A stretch of DNA of 57,421 bases from an uncultured Chlorobiaceae bacterium. Lineage in GTDB: Bacteria; Bacteroidota; Chlorobiia; Chlorobiales; Chlorobiaceae. This document shows positions 3,516 through 57,421 of this stretch, one piece after another. The notes under the pieces were generated by a model. That model saw only the letters and a program-made list of their open reading frames with translations. It did no database searches and was not told the origin of the DNA. Made by a program: the position numbers and the translations under genes. Where the stretch lies: positions 1 through 57,421 of the forward strand of contig CAJAIK010000113.1 in assembly GCA_903939765.1 (NCBI GenBank). The letters run 5' to 3'. Position 1 is the stretch's first letter. Each line of letters starts with the position of its first letter.

Positions 3516-5384
3516 ATGACCGCCTACATTAAAGGAAGTCTTAAAGGTTCTCTTTGCGAAACTTGCTTTGAAGAGCTTGCTAACACGAAAGTGTTGCTTT
3601 ATAAAACAAGAGCCGGATCCAATGTCACTGCAGCAGCAGTTGCAGAGTCGAAGGAAACATTCCGAGCCGTTAAAGATGCAGAGGCAAACGCCCGTAAAGA
3701 ACTTTTGATTGCAACGACTGTCACCAATGAAGCTGGTGAGTTTGTATTTGAAGTTTCCGAAAACAATCTGGAACAGGCCTTCGATATCGATTTTGTATGT
3801 GGCTCTGTACCGCACAGACCAATACCTCCAAAAGGAGGAAAAGAGTATCAATTTCACATTACAACTCTTTATCCCAAATGGAGACGTGGTGAAAATGAAA
3901 ACCTGCTTTACAACTGGAATTATGCAATATCAAGCAAGTGGTGGTGTTTTATCAGAGGGTATTTTTTCGATGCCTGGGTCATTTGCGGCGTGCTGGTTGA
4001 CTGTAAAACAGGTGGCCCGCTTCCTGATGTCACGGTAACAGCTATGGATGCCGACTTCTTCACTGACGACAATCTGGGAACATCGGTCACCGATTCGACA
4101 GGCCATTTCCGCATTGACTACACCTCTGCTGATTTTAAAAAGACCTTTTTCTCCCCTGTTATTAATATAGAAACTGACACGACCTTTCCATTTTTCAGCT
4201 CTGGACCCGATGTCTATTTCAAGCTTGAAATCGGCGGCACACCAATTACATTTGAAACTTCTGCCAACAGGCGCAAAAACGTAGGCTATTGTCTGTGTGT
4301 CCGCTTGTGTATCAGCGATTTGATCATTGCAGATCCACCAATCCCAGCATCATTTACCCGTATCGGTCGTTCTGCCAGGTTCGGCATCGTAAGCGAAATC
4401 AATCCTGCAACAGGGAAAAGCTTGCGCCCGGGCTTTGACAATTACGCCTTCTATTCTTCAATTATCCTTGTGGGAAGTTTGTCCAAAAAGCTGAACAATC
4501 AGCCGATGGAATATATGTTTGAATATCAGGAAGTTGCCGCACCCGGAAATCCGCTCTTGCCAGGCGCATGGCATCCTGTGACCCCGGCCATGATCCCGAA
4601 AACAGTCATTGGCTATATCTGGAGTCTGACCGGTGACATTATGAACCCCATTGCTACCGAAGACTATTTTATCAATGGCAATCCCGTCCTTGAAAAAACC
4701 GTCACCTTTAACGGAAACTGGATTAAAATGCCTCAGGAGTCTCATTTTGCTCCGCACATCGATACGGATATCCTTACGCTTAATACCGAGGCATTGATGC
4801 CGATAGTCAATATCAATGTTGATACAATGACCATTGGCAGCGCCACGGTTCCCGCCGTTGCAGCAGAGGTTTCAAACCGATATTTTGCACTCCGTATGAA
4901 ACAGCGCCAGTGGGGGAATCCAGCGACCGAAGTTGTAGCCGGAACCTCACGTCCCATCGCTATTTTTAACGCACGATACGACCGTGTACCAAAACACGGA
5001 AGCTGGATACCCGGGAAATTTGATGGCGAGTTGGGCGTCTGCTCTCTTGACATTGATGAAATTATCATCGGCATGGGAGGCTGTGGAAAAATCACCAACT
5101 CTCTCACCATTCACTTCAATGCAAGGAATGAAAACCTTGGAGTAACATATCTTACCCTTACAGGCCCTGCAAAGCCCGGACAATCGTTCTCGTTCCCTGC
5201 CATTGCTACAGCCCAGCCGGAAGTATACAGCAACTCCATACATCCTGTTATTTTGCCGATCAACAGCGTCAGCGAGTTATTGCCCTGTGCCTATACCGTA
5301 ACGATGAGTACATCACTTTTGCTGACCACCGGCGATTACATTCCCGGACCTCTCTATGACTTCATATCATTCTGCAAAGTATAG
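3516..5384 (+). CDS. Uncharacterised 622-aa protein with two transthyretin-like domains
   Basis: I do not recognise a named family. There is no signal peptide or membrane helix, so the protein is probably cytoplasmic unless exported by a special route. Two segments look like carboxypeptidase-regulatory/transthyretin-like beta sandwiches: residues about 5-95 (ending TVTNEAGEFVFEV) and about 155-225 (GVLVDCKTGGPLPDVTVTA, then SVTDSTGHFRIDY). They are joined by an aromatic linker, WWCFIRGYFFDAWVICG. The remaining 370 residues are beta-rich and lack a motif I can name. The protein has many cysteines (near residues 14, 17, 95, 143, 157, 162 and a CLCVRLC cluster near 263-269). It stands alone between long intergenic stretches. 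A structural or secreted-apparatus role is possible but not shown. Confidence 0.8.
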   Translation: MTAYIKGSLKGSLCETCFEELANTKVLLYKTRAGSNVTAAAVAESKETFRAVKDAEANARKELLIATTVTNEAGEFVFEVSENNLEQAFDIDFVCGSVPHRPIPPKGGKEYQFHITTLYPKWRRGENENLLYNWNYAISSKWWCFIRGYFFDAWVICGVLVDCKTGGPLPDVTVTAMDADFFTDDNLGTSVTDSTGHFRIDYTSADFKKTFFSPVINIETDTTFPFFSSGPDVYFKLEIGGTPITFETSANRRKNVGYCLCVRLCISDLIIADPPIPASFTRIGRSARFGIVSEINPATGKSLRPGFDNYAFYSSIILVGSLSKKLNNQPMEYMFEYQEVAAPGNPLLPGAWHPVTPAMIPKTVIGYIWSLTGDIMNPIATEDYFINGNPVLEKTVTFNGNWIKMPQESHFAPHIDTDILTLNTEALMPIVNINVDTMTIGSATVPAVAAEVSNRYFALRMKQRQWGNPATEVVAGTSRPIAIFNARYDRVPKHGSWIPGKFDGELGVCSLDIDEIIIGMGGCGKITNSLTIHFNARNENLGVTYLTLTGPAKPGQSFSFPAIATAQPEVYSNSIHPVILPINSVSELLPCAYTVTMSTSLLLTTGDYIPGPLYDFISFCKV

Positions 5385-5429: not shown

Positions 5430-5772
5430 TTGCCGGATACTCTGCTTGTCCAAAGCCTTTGCATCATTACCCCACTCGCGGGTGACCAACAGAGGCAAAT
5501 CATCACCGATGCCTTCGAACCAGCAGAAGCGTTGCCGCAAACACAATGGCTTTCAAAAAAAAGAGACTCTTCAATAGTGCATCTTTCACCCCGATTCAGC
5601 AGTGCCCAGGAATATTTGAAGGCTGAAGCACTTTTTCTTTGAACAATTATATTATATTTACCGTGATAACTGCACGAAGAATTTGACACCATTTTACTCA
5701 TTCATGGCAGACAAAAAATCCCGACATATTTTTGCAAGCACAACTTCCATTATCACATAAACACATACGACT
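5430..5772. other. Gene-free region upstream of the 105-aa gene
   Basis: About 340 bp without a convincing gene; the short frames present look like chance openings. The AT-rich stretch around 5636-5665 could hold the promoter of the 105-aa gene, but no clear pair of boxes stands out. Confidence 0.4.
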
Positions 5773-42026: not shown

Positions 42027-42362
42027 TTAAAGAGAGCCGATATGCTCGTCGAGTTTCGTTGCAATCGTATTTTTCGGCAGAGCTCCAACCATCTGGTCGA
42101 CAACCTTGCCATTTTTAAAAACAAGAAGGGAAGGGATGCTTCTGATACCATACTGGGCTGCAATCTTTGGATTCTCGTCAACATTGAGCTTCGCCACAAC
42201 GGCCTTTCCGGCGTAGTCACTGGCAAGTTCCTCAATAACAGGGCCAAGGATTTTACATGGGCCACACCATGGAGCCCAGAAATCAACCAGCCCAACTTTA
42301 TCAGAATCAAGAATCTCTGCCTTGAAATTCAGCTCTGTTGCCACAAGATAGTTATCACTCAT
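42027..42362 (-). CDS. Thioredoxin (first of a tandem pair, next to trxB)
   Basis: A 111-aa thioredoxin with active site WAPWCGPCK and the cis-Pro loop RSIPSLLVF. I place the start at the ATG at 42362 (MSDNYLVATELNF), which aligns with the second thioredoxin; the in-frame extension to 42398 is not shared by the paralog. The trxB gene starts 24 bp downstream, so a trx-trxB operon is likely. Confidence 0.93.
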   Translation of the reverse strand: MSDNYLVATELNFKAEILDSDKVGLVDFWAPWCGPCKILGPVIEELASDYAGKAVVAKLNVDENPKIAAQYGIRSIPSLLVFKNGKVVDQMVGALPKNTIATKLDEHIGSL

Positions 42363-42398
42363 TATTTTATTCACCGGTTTAGATTTAACAGCACTCAC

Positions 42399-42692: not shown

Positions 42693-43022
42693 TCAACCGA
42701 TATGCTCGTCGATTTTCTTTGCGATCATGTTTTTCGGCATAGCTCCAAGCATCTGGTCAACAACCTTGCCATTTTTGAAAATAAGAAGGGAGGGGATGCT
42801 TCTGATACCGTACGCGGCAGCACTGTTGGGATTATCGTCAACATTAAGTTTTGCAATAACAGCCTTTCCTGCGTAGTCACCGGCGAGCTCCTCAATAACA
42901 GGGCCGAGCATCATGCATGGGCCACACCAGGCTGCCCAAAAATCAACCAGCGCCACTTTATCGGAATCAAGAATCTCGGCCTTGAAATTCAGGTCTGTTG
43001 CCACAAGATATTTTCCACTCAT
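42693..43022 (-). CDS. Thioredoxin (second tandem copy)
   Basis: A 109-aa thioredoxin with active site WAAWCGPCM and RSIPSLLIF. It is highly similar to the copy at 42027-42362 along its length (both open with a short tail plus YLVATxLNFKAEILDSDKV). The change from K to M after the CGPC motif and P to A before it are the main active-site differences. The pair arose by tandem duplication. Confidence 0.93.
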   Translation of the reverse strand: MSGKYLVATDLNFKAEILDSDKVALVDFWAAWCGPCMMLGPVIEELAGDYAGKAVIAKLNVDDNPNSAAAYGIRSIPSLLIFKNGKVVDQMLGAMPKNMIAKKIDEHIG

Positions 43023-43123
43023 TTTTTTATGTACCAGTTTAGATTAATGATAGTCACAACGGTTGAACAAGAATTGAAAATCAATCAGTGAAGAAAGTAA
43101 CAAAATTTTATCAATAAACCGGG

Positions 43124-50539: not shown

Positions 50540-51889
50540 ATGCACAATAATTTCAGCCACCAGCAAACGCGATCAAACTTTATCGGAATTTTCAAGCTCC
50601 CGTTTATGGGGATAACGCTTTTTTTCTTATACTTTAGAAACTTATCTGACCTGTTTTACTCAATTACATTACTTCCTGTTACCGTTTTGGAGCAAAATAC
50701 CTATAACCAATGCCCGGTCTGCGGCTACCCCCTCACCACGCAGAGTGCGGTATGTCCCCGATGCGGAAACGATATCCTTGAAGATATATCCTCCCTTGAC
50801 CAGCAATCCAGGGAGTTTCACCATCACAGCATTGAAGGGAAAAAGGCCGAGTGGTATACCCGTTGCCTTACTGAAAAACTCAATGTCAGCACCGATGACT
50901 CCACCGCTTCTGCCCCAAAGAGCGTTCAACAGGCAATACCAAAAGAGAGCGTCGAATGCCCCGAAGCAGTTGATTCCCTCAGCCGCATCTCCAGAGCCGA
51001 GCTCATCAATGAGGGCTCCATACGAAAAAAATGGTGGTCGGCCCTCTCCATTGACTGGAAAGAGATCGTCAAAACAACCCTGAAAATTGTCCGGGATCCC
51101 TCCGATCCGGAGTTGCTTGACTTCCTTGAAATTACACACCTGCGTTGCGATAATCGCAGGATTCATAACCTTTGGCCCGTCAGTGTGCTCGAAAACCTTC
51201 AGCAGCTCCGTTGCGATGAATCGCCTGTCGAAAGCCTCGACCCGCTCAGGAACCTTCAGCATCTGCGCCGCCTCTACGCTTTCGACTGCGACTTTTCATC
51301 ACTTGAACCCCTTCGCAACCTGAAAGAGCTGAAACTCCTCTGGGTATCCAGCACCAAAGTCAGTTCACTTGAACCAATCAGCAGCTTGCTTGCCCTTGAA
51401 GAACTCTACTGTTCCGAAACGATCATCAGCGACCTTTCCCCGCTGAAAGCACTCGTCAACCTCGAAAAGCTCAGTTGCTACAAAACCGCCATCACCTCAC
51501 TTGAACCGCTCCTGAACCTCGAAAACCTTGTTGAGCTGGGCATCGACAATTCAAACATTACCGATATCACGCCACTCTCCGGGCTCAGAAACCTCGAATA
51601 TCTCCGCTGCAACAAAACCGGAATCAAAAACATCGAAGCGCTGAGAAATCTTTTTGAACTTCGGGAACTGAGCCTTGCAAACACGCCGCTTATCGATATC
51701 GACCCTCTCGAAGAACTGGCCAACCTCGAAGAGCTCGATTTGTCGAACACCTCCATCACCACAATTGGCCCCGTCATGCACCTGCAGAATCTTGAAAAAA
51801 TAGAACTTTCGGCCGGCAGGATTCCCCAGGAAGAGCTCGAACGCTTTATTGAACTCCACCCGAATTGCGAAGTAGTGCTGAAACCCTGA
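50540..51889 (+). CDS. Zinc-ribbon and leucine-rich-repeat protein
   Basis: A 449-aa protein. A zinc ribbon (CPVCGYPL...CPRCG; cysteines at residues 58, 61, 72 and 75) precedes a low-complexity linker. From about residue 200 to 430 there are roughly ten 22-residue leucine-rich repeats of the form LENLVELGIDNSNITDITPL, the internalin/SDS22-like type with I or L ending each unit. The N-terminal 50 residues are hydrophobic and may not be translated; a TTG at 50687 giving MEQNTYNQCPVCG is a realistic alternative start. LRR arrays bind proteins; the target is unknown. Confidence 0.85.
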   Translation: MHNNFSHQQTRSNFIGIFKLPFMGITLFFLYFRNLSDLFYSITLLPVTVLEQNTYNQCPVCGYPLTTQSAVCPRCGNDILEDISSLDQQSREFHHHSIEGKKAEWYTRCLTEKLNVSTDDSTASAPKSVQQAIPKESVECPEAVDSLSRISRAELINEGSIRKKWWSALSIDWKEIVKTTLKIVRDPSDPELLDFLEITHLRCDNRRIHNLWPVSVLENLQQLRCDESPVESLDPLRNLQHLRRLYAFDCDFSSLEPLRNLKELKLLWVSSTKVSSLEPISSLLALEELYCSETIISDLSPLKALVNLEKLSCYKTAITSLEPLLNLENLVELGIDNSNITDITPLSGLRNLEYLRCNKTGIKNIEALRNLFELRELSLANTPLIDIDPLEELANLEELDLSNTSITTIGPVMHLQNLEKIELSAGRIPQEELERFIELHPNCEVVLKP

Positions 51890-51975: not shown

Positions 51976-52111
51976 CATGTAAAAAAAATTTTCCAGCCTT
52001 TCCTTGTCAGTTTTTCCCTGTCGAGTGAGCTTACTTTTTCAGAGTTTCAGAGAACAGAGTGTCAGAAATTCAGGAAGAAAAAGGACTGGAACGAATCACT
52101 CGAAAACCCAT
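51976..52111. repeat. Copy of the variable-protein 3' end and downstream flank
   Basis: This stretch matches 53323-53452 closely, including 'ggactggaacgaatcactcg' and much of the non-coding flank beyond the stop codon. The shared block covers the last 12 codons and about 95 bp after the stop, so a whole gene end was duplicated, not a coding motif alone. Confidence 0.85.
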
Positions 52112-52165
52112 GACGTAGTTGATGACGTAGTCCCGCAGATAGTAGTCGAGATAATCGGTCGTAAA
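52070..52165 (-). pseudogene. Orphan 3' tail of a second DGR variable protein
   Basis: On the minus strand the end reads DYYLRDYVINYVMGFRVIRS then SPFSS and a stop. The last 12 residues (GFRVIRSSPFSS) are identical to those of the NACHT-FGE protein at 53410-56442, but the 12 residues before MGF differ. Ten of those 12 codons are NNY (GAC, TAC, TAT, GAC, TAC, GTC, ATC, AAC, TAC, GTC), the footprint left when adenines in AAC/AAT template codons are randomised. Upstream of about 52165 similarity stops, so the rest of the gene has been lost. Confidence 0.75.
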
Positions 52166-52300
52166 GAGAAAATGGAGAGAGGGTGACTGGTAAAATGAAA
52201 CCCCTTCACCGTTAAGCCCTCCTCATTTTTGATGATTTTTTGCTATTATTACTTTTACAGCCAGCAGAACGATTTACTAACAAAAAACATGTTGAGGCTC

Positions 52301-52519
52301 ATGATTTCAATACATGATGTTTACAGGAGTGCTTTAGCCCTGAACCTGCGGGAGCAAGCGGAGCTTGTTGACAGGTTGATTGCTCAGCTTGATCAGCCAG
52401 ACAGAATAATTGATGAGTTATGGATGAATGAAGCAGAAAGTCGGATTAATGCTTTTGATCAAGGGAAAATAAAAGCCATCCCTCTGAACGAGGTACTTGG
52501 AAAGTATTTTAATGCGTGA
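52301..52519 (+). CDS. Antitoxin of the ParD/RelB-like addiction-module type
   Basis: The start at the ATG at 52301 has GAGG 4 nt upstream; earlier in-frame ATG codons at 52289 and 52229 lack one. The 72-aa product (ALNLREQAELVDRLIAQLDQ, then EAESRINAFDQGKIKAIPLN) matches the putative addiction-module component family seen with RelE/ParE toxins. It overlaps the toxin gene by 8 bp. Confidence 0.85.
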   Translation: MISIHDVYRSALALNLREQAELVDRLIAQLDQPDRIIDELWMNEAESRINAFDQGKIKAIPLNEVLGKYFNA

Positions 52520-52808
52520 TAATATCCAATTTCTGGAAGTTGCCCAATCTGAGCTTGACGCAACCATAGACTACTACGACCATGAGTTGTCGGGTTTAGG
52601 CAAGATTTTTCTTACTGAGGTACTTCATGCTCTTGATCGGATAGTGAATCATCCTGATGCATGGCATCCGTGTTCACTGCGCACCAGGCGATGCCAGCTT
52701 CGTCGTTTTCCTTATGGAATAATTTACCAGATACGCGAACAAGACATTCTTGTTATTGCCATAGCAAATCTCCACAGAAGGCCATCCTACTGGAATGATC
52801 GTCTTTGA
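52512..52808 (+). CDS. RelE/ParE-type toxin
   Basis: A 98-aa protein starting at the ATG at 52512 (MRDNIQFLEVAQSELDATID). It has the RelE/ParE fold landmarks YYDHELSGLGKIFLTEVLHA, RRCQLRRFPYGIIYQI and IAIANLHRRPSYWNDR, the last being the typical C-terminal region with a basic residue needed for toxicity. It is paired with the antitoxin upstream and sits between DGR remnants. Confidence 0.88.
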   Translation: MRDNIQFLEVAQSELDATIDYYDHELSGLGKIFLTEVLHALDRIVNHPDAWHPCSLRTRRCQLRRFPYGIIYQIREQDILVIAIANLHRRPSYWNDRL

Positions 52809-52823: not shown

Positions 52824-52937
52824 TCACAACCCCAACGAGCGCAAAAGGTTGCGGGTATTGGCCTGCCGGGCGTGGCCGACCCAACCTGAAAGGCTCTGCC
52901 GCAAGTTTTCATGCTTGGCAAGCAAGGTGCATTGCAT
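52824..52937 (-). pseudogene. C-terminal stub of a reverse transcriptase (DGR-type)
   Basis: The 37-codon frame opens MQCTLLAKHENLRQSLSGWV and continues GHARQANTRNLLRSLGL. The LxxSLSGWxGHARxANTxxL pattern resembles the end of the thumb region in DGR reverse transcriptases, as I recall those sequences. It begins 5 bp after the stop codon of the Avd pseudogene, so the template repeat and most of the polymerase gene must have been deleted between them. The call rests on a short segment and is tentative. Confidence 0.6.
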
Positions 52938-52941
52938 CCTC

Positions 52942-53263
52942 TCAACCGCCAAGCATTTTTCCCAACTCGGCAATCTGCCGGCTCCCGAATTCGTATGAGG
53001 CAAGATTGATGAATTGCATCTCAAAACTCATGCGCAACAGGAGGCGCAGGCGCGTCAAAACCTCATCAGCCTCTGCCAGCGCCGGGCGCTTGTGGTTGCG
53101 CATGTTGGCAATGGCAACAAGTTCGGTAAATTCAAGCACGGCATTTTAGAGGGCGAACAGCAATGCTGAACCGATAGCTCTTCGGGAACTTTCCGGTATG
53201 GTGCAGCAGCCATTTCGAAAAATCAAAGGCTTTTTTGACGATCAGCATTTCGTGATTTGGCAT
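52942..53263 (-). pseudogene. avd: Avd accessory protein of a DGR, frameshifted
   Basis: Starting at the ATG at 53263 it reads MPNHEMLIVKKAFDFSKWLL, then HHTGKFPKSYRFSIAVR. An extra C near 53160 shifts the frame. In the other frame the sequence continues LEFTELVAIANMRNHKRPAL, AEADEVLTRLRLLLRMSFEM and ends ELGKMLGG. The sum of both frames is a 106-aa four-helix-bundle Avd, the basic protein that assists the DGR reverse transcriptase. Compared with the copy at 57190-57421 it has one inserted C and a G-to-T change. The gene is therefore inactive unless frameshifting occurs. Confidence 0.85.
52976..53173. repeat. Direct repeat copy 1 (Avd sequence)
   Basis: Nearly identical to 57224-57421 over about 198 bp, with a handful of differences including the frameshifting C. 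Together the two copies flank a 4-kb segment carrying the variable-protein gene and a toxin-antitoxin pair. Homologous recombination between them would delete that segment. Confidence 0.9.
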
Positions 53264-53322: not shown

Positions 53323-53452
53323 AAAAATTTCCAGCCTCTCCATCTCAGTTTTTCACTGTCGAGTGAGCTTGCTTTTTTTCAGATTTCCAGAGAACAGAGT
53401 GTCAGATTATCAGGAAGAAAAAGGACTGGAACGAATCACTCGAAAACCCACG
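53323..53452. repeat. Variable-protein 3' end, partner of the copy at 51976-52111
   Basis: Shared with 51976-52111 at high identity, and covers the last codons of the NACHT-FGE gene and about 85 bp of downstream sequence. In a DGR the sequence just after the variable region holds the initiation-of-mutagenic-homing site. Conservation of that flank between the two copies fits this role. A short CACT-CGAC-AGTG hairpin lies within it. Confidence 0.75.
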
Positions 53453-56442
53453 CTGAAGAAGCTGATCCTCGGATAGTAGTAGTTCCGGGAGGAGCAGCGC
53501 AGGGCATCAGCTTTATCACTATAATACGCGCTGCCCCGTATTGCACGCCAGCCATTCTCTTCATTATACCAGTCGTCCGTCCACTCCCACACATTGCCCG
53601 CCATATCATGCAACCCTTCAGGTGTAGCACCTTCAGGATAACGACCTACCGGTGTTGTGGCACCTTCATTGTTGTTATAATTCGCATGTCTGGTTGATGG
53701 CTCTGCACTCCCCCATGGGTAGACTCTGTTCTCTTTCCCCCCTGCCGCGTATTCCCACTCCTTTTCAGTTGGTAACCGATAGAGCGCTGTATTTTCTCCA
53801 TTACTCTCAAGCAGGGAGATCCAAAAGCAATACGCTTGAGCGGCATACCAGCTCACCCCAACGACGGGCTGATCATCTTTGTTGAAGCGTTTGTCATCAT
53901 CCTTATATGAAGTAAAACATTTGGAGAGCGATTCTTCTCCCCGCAGAAAATCGCTGAACCCCTTGATTTTCTTTGCCTCTCGCTGCAATCGTACTGTGTA
54001 ACGCTCAACGGGAAGCACGGTTGCAAATTCGATATCCTGGGCCGCCAGATAGTTGATAAAGCGGCGATAAAGCTGGTTCGTCACGGTGTATTTGGCCATA
54101 GAGAGATCCTGCACCCTCTCCTGCTTCTTTGTCAGCGAAAAGATAAAAGAACCGCCTTTGATGAGAATGTACTCTGCCCCAATCTTGTCACGCAACACTG
54201 CTGTGGTGGCATGAACTTCACGAAACTTCATCACCATGGCAAGCGCTTCCGGCTTGCCAATTGTTTTCAAACACTCCATGATGTATCGCTGCCGGTTCGG
54301 CGTTGTTGCCGGATCAAGCAATTTCGTCTGCAAGGCATCAATTTTGCGTTGTGGCGCCTCCTCGACGAGGGTAATCAGCAAATCCTGCTGCTTTGGCGTC
54401 AAAGAGTCTGTGACTGGTGAATCAAAGAGCTTCTCCATGAAGGAATCAAAAATCCCGGCGTCATCAACATGACCAATAAAAAAACGGAGCGGCTCCTGCC
54501 ACCAGTCGTCACCGAAATGGGTGACCAGTTCGTCAAGAGAACCTCCCCTGTGCATGGTTTTTTCAAGCTGAACTCCCGCCAGGTACTCACGGAAGGATTT
54601 ATGACGAAACACATACTCTTTTTCACCGTACTCCACCAGCAGACCAGCCCGGTCAACAAGGTTCCGGCAAAAATCTGTGGCAGGCAGTGAATTGTAGAGC
54701 GTATCGAGCAGCTCCTGCATTTTCTCCTGCATTTTCTCCCGACCTGCCTCATCTTTTTTCAACTCCTCCTGCATCCAGAGCGAGACAGGGCTCAGCACCC
54801 GCCTCGCATCTTCTGCGGCAAGTAACGGGTCAATTCCTCTCCGGCGGTCACGATAATCGAGCATATAGTTCAATGCAGCGTCGTAGAGCTTTAAACGACT
54901 GCCCGGCAGATACTGGCGATCTTTCCAGAGCATCGCCATAATCTGCAACAACAGCGGAACCCCTGCCAATGATTGTAAACTCCGGTTTTTCTCCTGAGCG
55001 AGAAAGTCAAGAATTGCATCGGCTTTTTTGGCTGCTTGCTGTTCCTGATGGATGCGCCACTCCGCCTTGTCTCCGGTGGCGGGTGGAATTTCGCCGAGGA
55101 AAGCGGCCTTGAACCAACGCTGTAAAAACTGCGCCTGCTGCTCTTTGGAAAAGTCCATAATGTCGGCACGCAGATGGCTTGCTTCAAGCTCAATGCCATC
55201 GCCTTTCCTATAGCCTGTGCTCCTTGAGGTCACCACAAACCGGACAGAGGTAAACCTGCCAACCATCTTGTCAATCCAGCCACAAACCGCAATCCGGTCA
55301 TGGACATCACTGATTTCATCCAAACCATCAAGAAGCACAAGCGTTGAGGGCTCCTCAAGCCAGCCGGAAAAGAGCGTATCGGGGAGAACAAGGAAATTTT
55401 TTTCACACCATGCAGAGAGCGTTGCGGGCAATGAAGCGTAGCCGGTATCACCCCTTCTGAGTTCACGCAACGGAAGGTAAAAAACATTGACCGGTTCGCT
55501 GAACCCGAACTCCTTGTGCCGACCGTTGTCGAGACAGGAGAGCGCATAGTATTTGAGCAAGGTTGTTTTTCCTGAACCGGGATCGCCAATAATGAGCAGC
55601 AATGGATGATGCTGAAAAACAAAACGCATCACCTCTTCAGGAGTGCTGGTACAATCCTTTTGGTGAGGCACACACTGATCATCTGCGCTGTAGGGACGTG
55701 TTTCGCAGCGCGACGAGCCGGAAAGAGTTAACGACACAAAGGTATCGGAGAGCTTTACTGAAAAATTTGTAATGGCGGGAGAACCTGTCAGGGTGATGTT
55801 ACCCAATTGGCGTTTCAGGGTTGACTGGTAGAGCTTGAGGGCCGAAGCCGCATCAAGCTCAGGCAAAACGACAATCCGGTCTTGAACTGCGGCGTCCGGC
55901 CCAAACCACCGGGGTATCTGGATGTCGAGATGAGTCAGAAGGTTTTGACGAAATATATCAGGACTATCATATTCCCACAACAGCGAATACCCTTGCATCG
56001 ATGCTTTAAATTCAGCAAGTCTCGTCAACTGGTCGGCGAACTCCATTACCTTGCCGGAATCGGAGAGATTCAACGGGTAGTTGGCTTTGGAAAAATAGAG
56101 CATGACCGGCTTGCGATAACTCATTAACCTTTGTACCTCTTCAACAGCTCCTCCCGGAGCTACACCTGTATCAGTACCAATCCGTGTCCAAAACATCCCG
56201 ATGGCGCAATCGCACGCATCAACAATCTGCTTATTAAGAATTCCCTGCACCCTCTCACCACTTTCAGGTGCCCCGTGCGATTCCCACAACACTGGCTCAA
56301 GCATGAGGCCGGACTGTGGATGACGGATATGCCAGGTGCAAATTACTTCATCGGCTATTTTCCGCTCTGCGGCAACGTCGGAGGGTGAAGCGACGAGAAC
56401 TTTTACGATTCGAGCCAGGTTGTCAGGCATTGGGCATTTCAA
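53410..56442 (-). CDS. DGR variable protein: N-terminal sensor-like domain, NACHT NTPase, C-terminal FGE/C-type-lectin domain
   Basis: A 1,010-aa protein. Residues about 10-120 (VKVLVASPSDVAAERKIADE, DCAIGMFWTRIGTDTG) form a DUF4062/TIR-like N-terminal domain. The NACHT NTPase has Walker A IIGDPGSGKTTLLKYYAL (286-293 core), Walker B STLVLLDGLDEISD, and a helical domain with ENRSLQSLAGVPLLLQIMAM-like text (EKNRSLQSLAGVPLLLQIMA). The C-terminal 250 residues are a formylglycine-generating-enzyme fold (YRLPTEKEWEYAAGG, HDMAGNVWEWTDDWYNEENG, WRAIRGSAYYSDKADALRCS). The final RNYYYPRISFFSVGF segment has nine NNY codons among the eleven at 987-997. FGE-fold proteins with such tails are known DGR targets, and NACHT fusions of them are proposed conflict-system sensors. 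The start could also be the ATG at 56430. Confidence 0.92.
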   Translation of the reverse strand: MKCPMPDNLARIVKVLVASPSDVAAERKIADEVICTWHIRHPQSGLMLEPVLWESHGAPESGERVQGILNKQIVDACDCAIGMFWTRIGTDTGVAPGGAVEEVQRLMSYRKPVMLYFSKANYPLNLSDSGKVMEFADQLTRLAEFKASMQGYSLLWEYDSPDIFRQNLLTHLDIQIPRWFGPDAAVQDRIVVLPELDAASALKLYQSTLKRQLGNITLTGSPAITNFSVKLSDTFVSLTLSGSSRCETRPYSADDQCVPHQKDCTSTPEEVMRFVFQHHPLLLIIGDPGSGKTTLLKYYALSCLDNGRHKEFGFSEPVNVFYLPLRELRRGDTGYASLPATLSAWCEKNFLVLPDTLFSGWLEEPSTLVLLDGLDEISDVHDRIAVCGWIDKMVGRFTSVRFVVTSRSTGYRKGDGIELEASHLRADIMDFSKEQQAQFLQRWFKAAFLGEIPPATGDKAEWRIHQEQQAAKKADAILDFLAQEKNRSLQSLAGVPLLLQIMAMLWKDRQYLPGSRLKLYDAALNYMLDYRDRRRGIDPLLAAEDARRVLSPVSLWMQEELKKDEAGREKMQEKMQELLDTLYNSLPATDFCRNLVDRAGLLVEYGEKEYVFRHKSFREYLAGVQLEKTMHRGGSLDELVTHFGDDWWQEPLRFFIGHVDDAGIFDSFMEKLFDSPVTDSLTPKQQDLLITLVEEAPQRKIDALQTKLLDPATTPNRQRYIMECLKTIGKPEALAMVMKFREVHATTAVLRDKIGAEYILIKGGSFIFSLTKKQERVQDLSMAKYTVTNQLYRRFINYLAAQDIEFATVLPVERYTVRLQREAKKIKGFSDFLRGEESLSKCFTSYKDDDKRFNKDDQPVVGVSWYAAQAYCFWISLLESNGENTALYRLPTEKEWEYAAGGKENRVYPWGSAEPSTRHANYNNNEGATTPVGRYPEGATPEGLHDMAGNVWEWTDDWYNEENGWRAIRGSAYYSDKADALRCSSRNYYYPRISFFSVGFRVIRSSPFSS
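53449..53530 (-). other. Probable DGR variable region of the NACHT-FGE gene
   Basis: Codons for residues 987-997 are NNY with only two exceptions (CCG, AGG), as expected when AAC/AAT codons of a template repeat are randomised at their adenines. The invariant GFRVIRSSPFSS end follows. Upstream, residues YYSDKADALRCSS may belong to the same region. A template with A at those positions was not found in the window, so the assignment is by codon pattern and comparison with the tail at 52070-52165. Confidence 0.7.
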
Positions 56443-56499: not shown

Positions 56500-56796
56500 T
56501 TATAGATCAAGCTCATCCAAACGCAGTAAACGGTGCCCTTCAAAAACGGTGAGAATTTCAACATGCAGTGAAGTGCGCCTATACACTATTCGGTAATTCC
56601 CGACAAGTATCTCCCTGATTTCAGAATAAGAGAGCTCAGGAACCACTCTTCCCGCATCAGGATATATACCGGTCAAATCGCCTTTTTCAAGAAGGTGATC
56701 AATAAAATCAGAAGCCCTGTCCGAATTATCCTGAGCGATAAACCCTTCAATTTCAGCAAGTTTTCTGACCGCTTCGCTTGTCCAGACCACCTTCAT
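56500..56796 (-). CDS. RelE/ParE-type toxin
   Basis: A 98-aa protein with VVWTSEAVRKLAEIEGFIAQ at the N-terminus, then PDAGRVVPELSYSEIREILV and YRIVYRRTSLHVEILTVFEG, the RelE/ParE core. It differs in sequence from the toxin at 52512-52808. It overlaps its antitoxin by 4 bp (ATGA) and lies 58 bp before the variable-protein gene on the same strand. Confidence 0.88.
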   Translation of the reverse strand: MKVVWTSEAVRKLAEIEGFIAQDNSDRASDFIDHLLEKGDLTGIYPDAGRVVPELSYSEIREILVGNYRIVYRRTSLHVEILTVFEGHRLLRLDELDL

Positions 56797-57083
56797 TCTT
56801 TTCTGGAAGCTCTTTTTTCAGCAAGCATCTGCCGTACCTCATCCGTATCATAGTGTTCCCCGGATTCTGCCGCTGCCAAGCCACGCTCAACAGATTCGGA
56901 AAATTGTTTGCGGTACACCAATGCGTCATATTCAACAGGTGAAAGCAGAACTCCGGCCGGCCGGCCATTCTGGGTAATAATCAATGGATGACCAGTAACC
57001 TGTGCTTTTTTCAGGCAGGCAGAGATCCCGGCCTTAAACTCACCCAGCGGAATAATATCGCTTGATATTTGAATGTTTTTCAT
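56793..57083 (-). CDS. Phd/YefM-family antitoxin
   Basis: A 96-aa antitoxin: IIPLGEFKAGISACLKKAQV, then HPLIITQNGRPAGVLLSPVE, the Phd/YefM DNA-binding and dimer region. The C-terminal ESGEHYDTDEVRQMLAEKRA is the toxin-binding tail. It is translationally coupled to the RelE toxin. The frame appears whole. Confidence 0.9.
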   Translation of the reverse strand: MKNIQISSDIIPLGEFKAGISACLKKAQVTGHPLIITQNGRPAGVLLSPVEYDALVYRKQFSESVERGLAAAESGEHYDTDEVRQMLAEKRASRKE

Positions 57084-57189
57084 GAAAAAGTATGGTTTTC
57101 AGATCCGAATTCAATCCTTTTTTCGATCTACAATAAAGCAAGTATAATCAAACGAAATAAACCACACAACCTCTTCAACCGGCTTACGC

Positions 57190-57421
57190 TCAACTCTTCC
57201 ATATACCACTTGATATTGTTATTTGCCGGCTCCCGAATTCGTATGAGGCGAGATTGATGAATTGCATCTCAAAACTCATGCGCAACAGGAGGCGCAGGCG
57301 CGTCAAAACCTCATCAGCCTCTGCCAGCGCCGGGCGCTTGTGGTTGCGCATGTTGGCAACAGCAACAAGCTCGGTAAATTCAAGCACGGCATTTTCGAGG
57401 CGAACAGCAATGCTGAACCGA
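57190..57421 (-). pseudogene. avd: Second Avd copy with replaced C-terminus (runs off the window)
   Basis: The frame enters from the window edge with RFSIAVRLENAVLEFTELVA, intact where copy 1 is frameshifted, and continues through VLTRLRLLLRMSFEMQFINL to FGSRQI. There homology stops and the frame ends after TISSGIWKS, instead of AELGKMLGG. The lost tail carries the conserved Gly-Gly end of Avd. The N-terminus lies outside, so it could be an active gene with a new tail or another pseudogene. Confidence 0.75.
57224..57421. repeat. Direct repeat copy 2 (Avd sequence)
   Basis: Partner of 52976-53173; the identity starts at 'tgccggctcccgaattcg' in both and extends to the window end, and may continue beyond. 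The junction at 57224 marks where the Avd C-terminus was cut. Confidence 0.9.

Follow-up and report, generated by a model that had tools for sequence, protein, structure and literature searches.

Remnants of an Avd and reverse transcriptase unit in a putative multi-target DGR array of an uncultured Chlorobiaceae bacterium

Targets lying more than 370 kb away from the reverse transcriptase (RT), and accompanied by another RT that is heavily mutated, were recorded in the DiGReF survey of DGRs (Schillinger et al. 2012, PMC3521204), whose authors proposed a duplication after which one RT was lost, the other enzyme being enough for all variable repeats (VRs). In the Pseudogulbenkiania sp. NH8B type of that survey (PMC3521204) the distant targets match the template repeat (TR) of the working RT and a damaged RT adjoins them, as we observe here. 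The DGR of Pelodictyon phaeoclathratiforme BU-1 has four VRs, one of which lies outside any identifiable ORF (PMC3521204); going by this published description, it resembles the present case in being a green sulfur bacterium with one RT and several VRs, and its orphan VR is comparable to that at 52060-52125 of our sequence. Duplicated DGR loci with NACHT-CLec targets are known from multicellular bacteria such as Thiohalocapsa PB-PSB1 (PMC10907252), where, as here, NACHT is combined with a diversified C-terminal C-lectin/FGE domain, the loci are duplicated within the genome and several targets are found per RT; in Thiohalocapsa the duplication is tied to transposons (PMC10907252). The present case fits a kind already described in 2012 (DiGReF, PMC3521204). 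Unlike the multi-VR cases of that survey, however, the RT has here been lost by an internal deletion that fused it to Avd, several units have collapsed, and toxin-antitoxin pairs are placed between RT and target.

The window, that is, the whole stretch of 57,421 nucleotides analysed here, is contig C113 of a 2.98-Mb source genome (G000) made up of 128 contigs. Its two collapsed units are called unit A (52824-53263) and unit B (57217-57421), and the intact unit on contig C97 was used as the reference (Table 1). A preliminary description of unit A had reported an Avd gene broken by one inserted C, and we found this extra C near 53152 accompanied by a G>T change (intact copies read GTTCGCCTCGAAAATGCC and the window GTTCGCCCTCTAAAATGCC, as aligned by eye). 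Both halves of the broken gene were recognized by NCBIfam DivGenRetAVD, by Pfam bAvd and by a family HMM built in this analysis, the Pfam and NCBIfam scores falling short of the cut-offs set for whole proteins owing to the small size of each half. The C-terminal part ends in KMLGG-stop at the deletion junction, and after 4 bp (GAGG), rather than the 5 bp given earlier, begins a stub which counts 37 codons from its ATG (52937..52824), the original RT 3′ flank continuing past it to 52796. As the stub is too short to be matched in Pfam and NCBIfam scans, which returned nothing for it, an HMM was built from 14 related full-length DGR RTs; the stub was detected with high significance, while the top match in five shuffled windows, which served as control, reached only E=0.5. 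At the protein level the stub shares 83% identity with the C97 RT C-terminus (E=5e-18). Its earlier recognition as the C-terminus of a DGR RT was thus borne out: it neither belongs to an unrelated family nor represents an intact RT gene with an unrelated ending of its own. Unit A retains RT residues 302-339 alone, its Avd frame is broken and the TR expected between the two genes is absent from the window, so that it does not qualify as a functional DGR.

Table 1. Features of the window and collapsed units in other Chlorobium genomes
Feature	Position	Strand	Evidence
Avd N-terminal part (aa 1-37; MPNHEMLIVKK...FSIAVR), unit A	53153..53263	-	100% identity to Avd aa 1-37 of C97/C87; DivGenRetAVD E=8e-5; bAvd 0.029; family HMM E=8.5e-23
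Avd C-terminal part, unit A, other frame	52942..53152 (frame read 53139..52942)	-	92-97% identical to C97 Avd; NCBIfam DivGenRetAVD E=4e-15; bAvd 2e-7; family HMM E=7.5e-37
RT C-terminal stub (RT aa 302-339 + stop), unit A	52824..52940	-	RT HMM E=4.2e-16; 92% DNA identity over 144 nt to C97 RT end + flank
Antitoxin (Unstab_antitox) + ParE toxin pair, intact, unit A	52301..52808	+	Pfam 2.4e-12 and 4.1e-9
Orphan C-terminal end of lost second target gene (VR end + ...GFRVIRSSPFSS*)	52060..52125	-	sequence comparison
VP1, intact DGR target, 1010 aa, STAND-like, NACHT + C-terminal FGE-sulfatase/C-lectin	53410..56442	-	Pfam NACHT 1e-14, FGE-sulfatase 2.6e-42
VR1, variable repeat of VP1	53427..53509	-	11 differences from C97 TR in 83 nt, each at a TR adenine; p=1.5e-7
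Phd/YefM-ParE toxin-antitoxin pair, intact, unit B	56500..57083	-	Pfam PhdYeFM_antitox 8e-14, ParE_toxin 2e-13
Short sequence after truncated Avd of unit B	57084..57220	-	by eye like RT-remnant 3′ end/flank in G041 C160; no tool score
Avd aa 31-97, collapsed unit B	57217..57421	-	99% DNA identity to C97 Avd, then match stops; HMM E=7e-37
G041 C160			deletion from Avd aa 52 to RT about aa 290
G041 C224			deletion from Avd aa 76 to RT upstream region, TR lost
G014			copy 98-99% identical to intact unit on same contig; TR and RT lost
G020 C323			deletion from RT aa 49 to about aa 313
G054			deletion from Avd to RT aa 325
G027			reduced to Avd aa 1-62; junction mapped less clearly

When unit A was mapped on the C97 unit, positions 1-231 (Avd) were found joined to positions 1534-1677 (RT 3′ end and flank) with 3 bp between them, and the flanks were collinear on both sides of the junction, which supports the internal deletion proposed earlier. 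About 1.3 kb is missing with respect to C97, comprising the TR together with the final codons of Avd and RT residues 1-301. Beyond the RT flank, unit A continues with a toxin-antitoxin pair, sequence that is found upstream of the target VP2, and what is left of a target gene, its final codons and VR end. Unit A and C97 thus descend from one unit and have been damaged in different ways.

In the source genome a single full-length RT belongs to the stub's family, and it lies on C97. On the minus strand of this 5.3-kb contig, Avd is followed by an AAC-rich TR (4889-4996), the RT (339 aa), the target VP2 (NACHT-FGE) and the start of another Avd. The RT matched RVT_1 (E=4.5e-15) and carries both motifs by which DGR RTs were judged ([ILV]GxxxSQ and YxDD) in the form IGNLTSQ and YVDD, as do 13 aligned relatives. 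The accessory Avd, of the same family as the window Avd that matches DivGenRetAVD, is represented on C97 by aa 31-117, its N-terminal part being on C87 or at the other end of C97. A genome-wide search found a TR of the C97/unit A family on C97 only. The terminal 141 bp of C113 recur exactly at both ends of C97, as its first and its final 141 bp, and C97 (+ strand) ends in the same 22 bp with which C87 begins; with each contig used once, only the order C113-C97-C87 therefore fits these overlaps. From this order we infer that the C97 RT would be placed about 4-5 kb upstream of VP1, the target next to unit A, so that the intact unit most likely belongs directly upstream of VP1 in the same array, the two contigs being separate in the assembly. 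There is a slight chance that C97 was misbinned, given the fragmented genome and same-genus relatives that are mostly MAGs, but the exact 141-bp overlap argues against it.

Two further loci of the source genome deserve mention. A second, distant DGR is present on C16 at 47.7-49.6 kb (L018 3684-3815 / 5461-5592), where the RT is 37% identical and 17 of the 19 differences in the TR/VR pair are at adenines, and a third, DGR-like locus on C87 at 42.5-46 kb (L005) contains a 133-nt repeat pair (88%), an RT that is 38% identical, and FGE-like genes. The full-length DGR-like RTs of C16 and C87 (44 kb), about 37% identical to that of C97, are unlikely partners of VP1, as they adjoin other TR/VR-like repeats.

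VP1 starts with TTG, an alternative ATG being present at 56430, and VR1 falls in its last 35 codons, the 3′ end at which a VR is looked for in a C-lectin/FGE target. Among the 83 TR positions compared, 24 are adenines, and VR1 equals the C97 TR at all the 59 others. When the five VRs VR1 to VR5 were compared with the C97 TR by a hypergeometric test, 11/11, 13/13, 12/13, 12/15 and 15/15 of the differences, respectively, were at adenines (63/67 in total; p 7.6e-6 to 1.1e-10); the four targets other than VP1 (one on C97, two on C87 and one on C96) account for 52 of 56. The suggestion of the preliminary description that the deletion had switched off an in-cis DGR is thus not supported, since a search of the genome for another RT leads to the C97 unit, in which a full-length RT of the same family stands with Avd and TR. 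One might argue from the loss of TR and RT next to VP1 that its only DGR has been inactivated and that VP1 is now frozen. We regard this as improbable, because the genome retains an intact TR-RT-Avd unit of the same family that matches VR1 at every non-adenine position, and because Avd and stub of unit A have drifted by 3-8% from C97, whereas a frozen VR of equal age would be expected to carry a few non-adenine changes. The lost TR, if it was identical to the one on C97, might in principle have been the source of the latest rewriting of VR1.

In unit B, the 5′ end of Avd is cut by the contig end and its 3′ end is truncated, after which there is no TR and no RT; the toxin-antitoxin pair follows, and then VP1. 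This pair (56.5 kb) is 86-92% identical to one in G041 C160 (L073 3279-3859). The pair of unit A sits downstream of the RT stub, and its equivalent in C97 is a 27-aa antitoxin remnant only. Toxin-antitoxin pairs between RT remnants and the next target remain open where RT and Avd have been gutted, in both window units as well as in G041 C160. The orphan VR end is fused to sequence that in C97 lies just upstream of the VP2 gene (window 52151-52380, upstream of the orphan VR end, is 91% identical to C97 3407-3637). It is two codons longer than the C97 TR and may stem from the lost TR; no TR matching it was found. Adjoining it, at 50540-51889, is a leucine-rich-repeat protein whose N-terminus bears a pair of CxxC motifs resembling a zinc ribbon. 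Elsewhere in the window, copies of a roughly 102-bp direct repeat, 85-89% identical, occupy the contig start (1-400), and a 349-bp direct duplication (86% identity) is formed by 42037-42385 and 42697-43045.

We also examined 65 Chlorobium genomes, the same-genus set including MAGs of uncultured Chlorobiaceae and a Chlorobium sp. The Avd family of the window was present in 17 of these, and distinct deletions of Avd, TR or RT were seen in five further genomes (two in G041, and others in G014, G020, G027 and G054; Table 1). One full-length RT of the family was found in each of the six genomes with collapsed units, the source genome included. The close identity of the collapsed G014 copy to its intact neighbor indicates that collapse came after duplication. 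As microhomology, the 4 bp GTTC are shared at the junction in G041 C224; on that contig (L074 4957-5346) a full-length DGR RT is present, but the TR and the Avd C-terminus are deleted, and a search by pattern found no TR of the family in G041, whose genome is 82% complete. In G020, on C323 (L071 1-480) and C364, the TR looks intact and the RT that comes after it has lost an internal segment in frame, while the full-length RT (C36) is accompanied by a degenerate TR. Outside the genus, truncated copies occur in a Chlorobaculum (L106) and in an Aminicenantes MAG (L097).

These comparisons bear on two ways in which the junction of unit A could have arisen with no deletion in the genome. Several Chlorobiaceae targets are followed by a truncated Avd only (e.g. 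L106), so that target duplications might have brought along just the 5′ part of Avd, which then landed by an unrelated RT end; this is very unlikely, as the succession of Avd, RT C-terminus, RT 3′ flank, toxin-antitoxin pair and target 5′ flank in unit A is fully collinear with the intact unit, and the same collinearity is seen in G041 C160 and G054 C181. An assembly chimera between repeated Avd and RT copies is still harder to sustain, for even though contigs of the source genome do break at Avd repeats, the junction sits 4.4 kb within the contig, unit A differs from C97 by 3.5% in Avd and by 8% in the stub, which are therefore not collapsed C97 copies, the toxin-antitoxin pair that follows the stub is absent from C97, and similar but distinct junctions are present in other assemblies.

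Taken together, the remnant in unit A is very probably a degenerate satellite unit in a multi-target Chlorobium DGR array, in which the C97 unit serves the targets and the lost RTs were redundant. The ancestral repeating unit would have had the order target, Avd, TR, RT, (toxin-antitoxin pair), target, and such units would have been duplicated. In unit A one internal deletion, or nested deletions, would then have removed the end of Avd, the TR and 89% of the RT, Avd would also have been frameshifted, and the next target gene would have been deleted down to its VR end, while unit B would have lost the end of Avd, the TR and the RT. The C97 unit would supply RT, Avd and template RNA to VP1 and at least four other targets, and the lost RTs would therefore be redundant. 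The evidence fits a redundant copy decaying in the usual way rather than loss of the system, whose present-day activity we presume from sequence. It is conceivable, though rather doubtful, that in DGR arrays of Chlorobiaceae the RT/TR units collapse time and again until a single master is left, with the targets kept, and that toxin-antitoxin pairs persist in gutted units as addiction modules which hold the array together.

The junctions in several species point to a route by which multi-target DGRs may arise, namely duplication of whole units, deletion of the redundant RT and TR, and retention of the targets under one master. Such arrays would offer a ready means of finding out what number of NACHT-type receptors can be diversified from a single template. 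For annotation, they are a warning that a target need not be frozen just because an RT remnant adjoins it.
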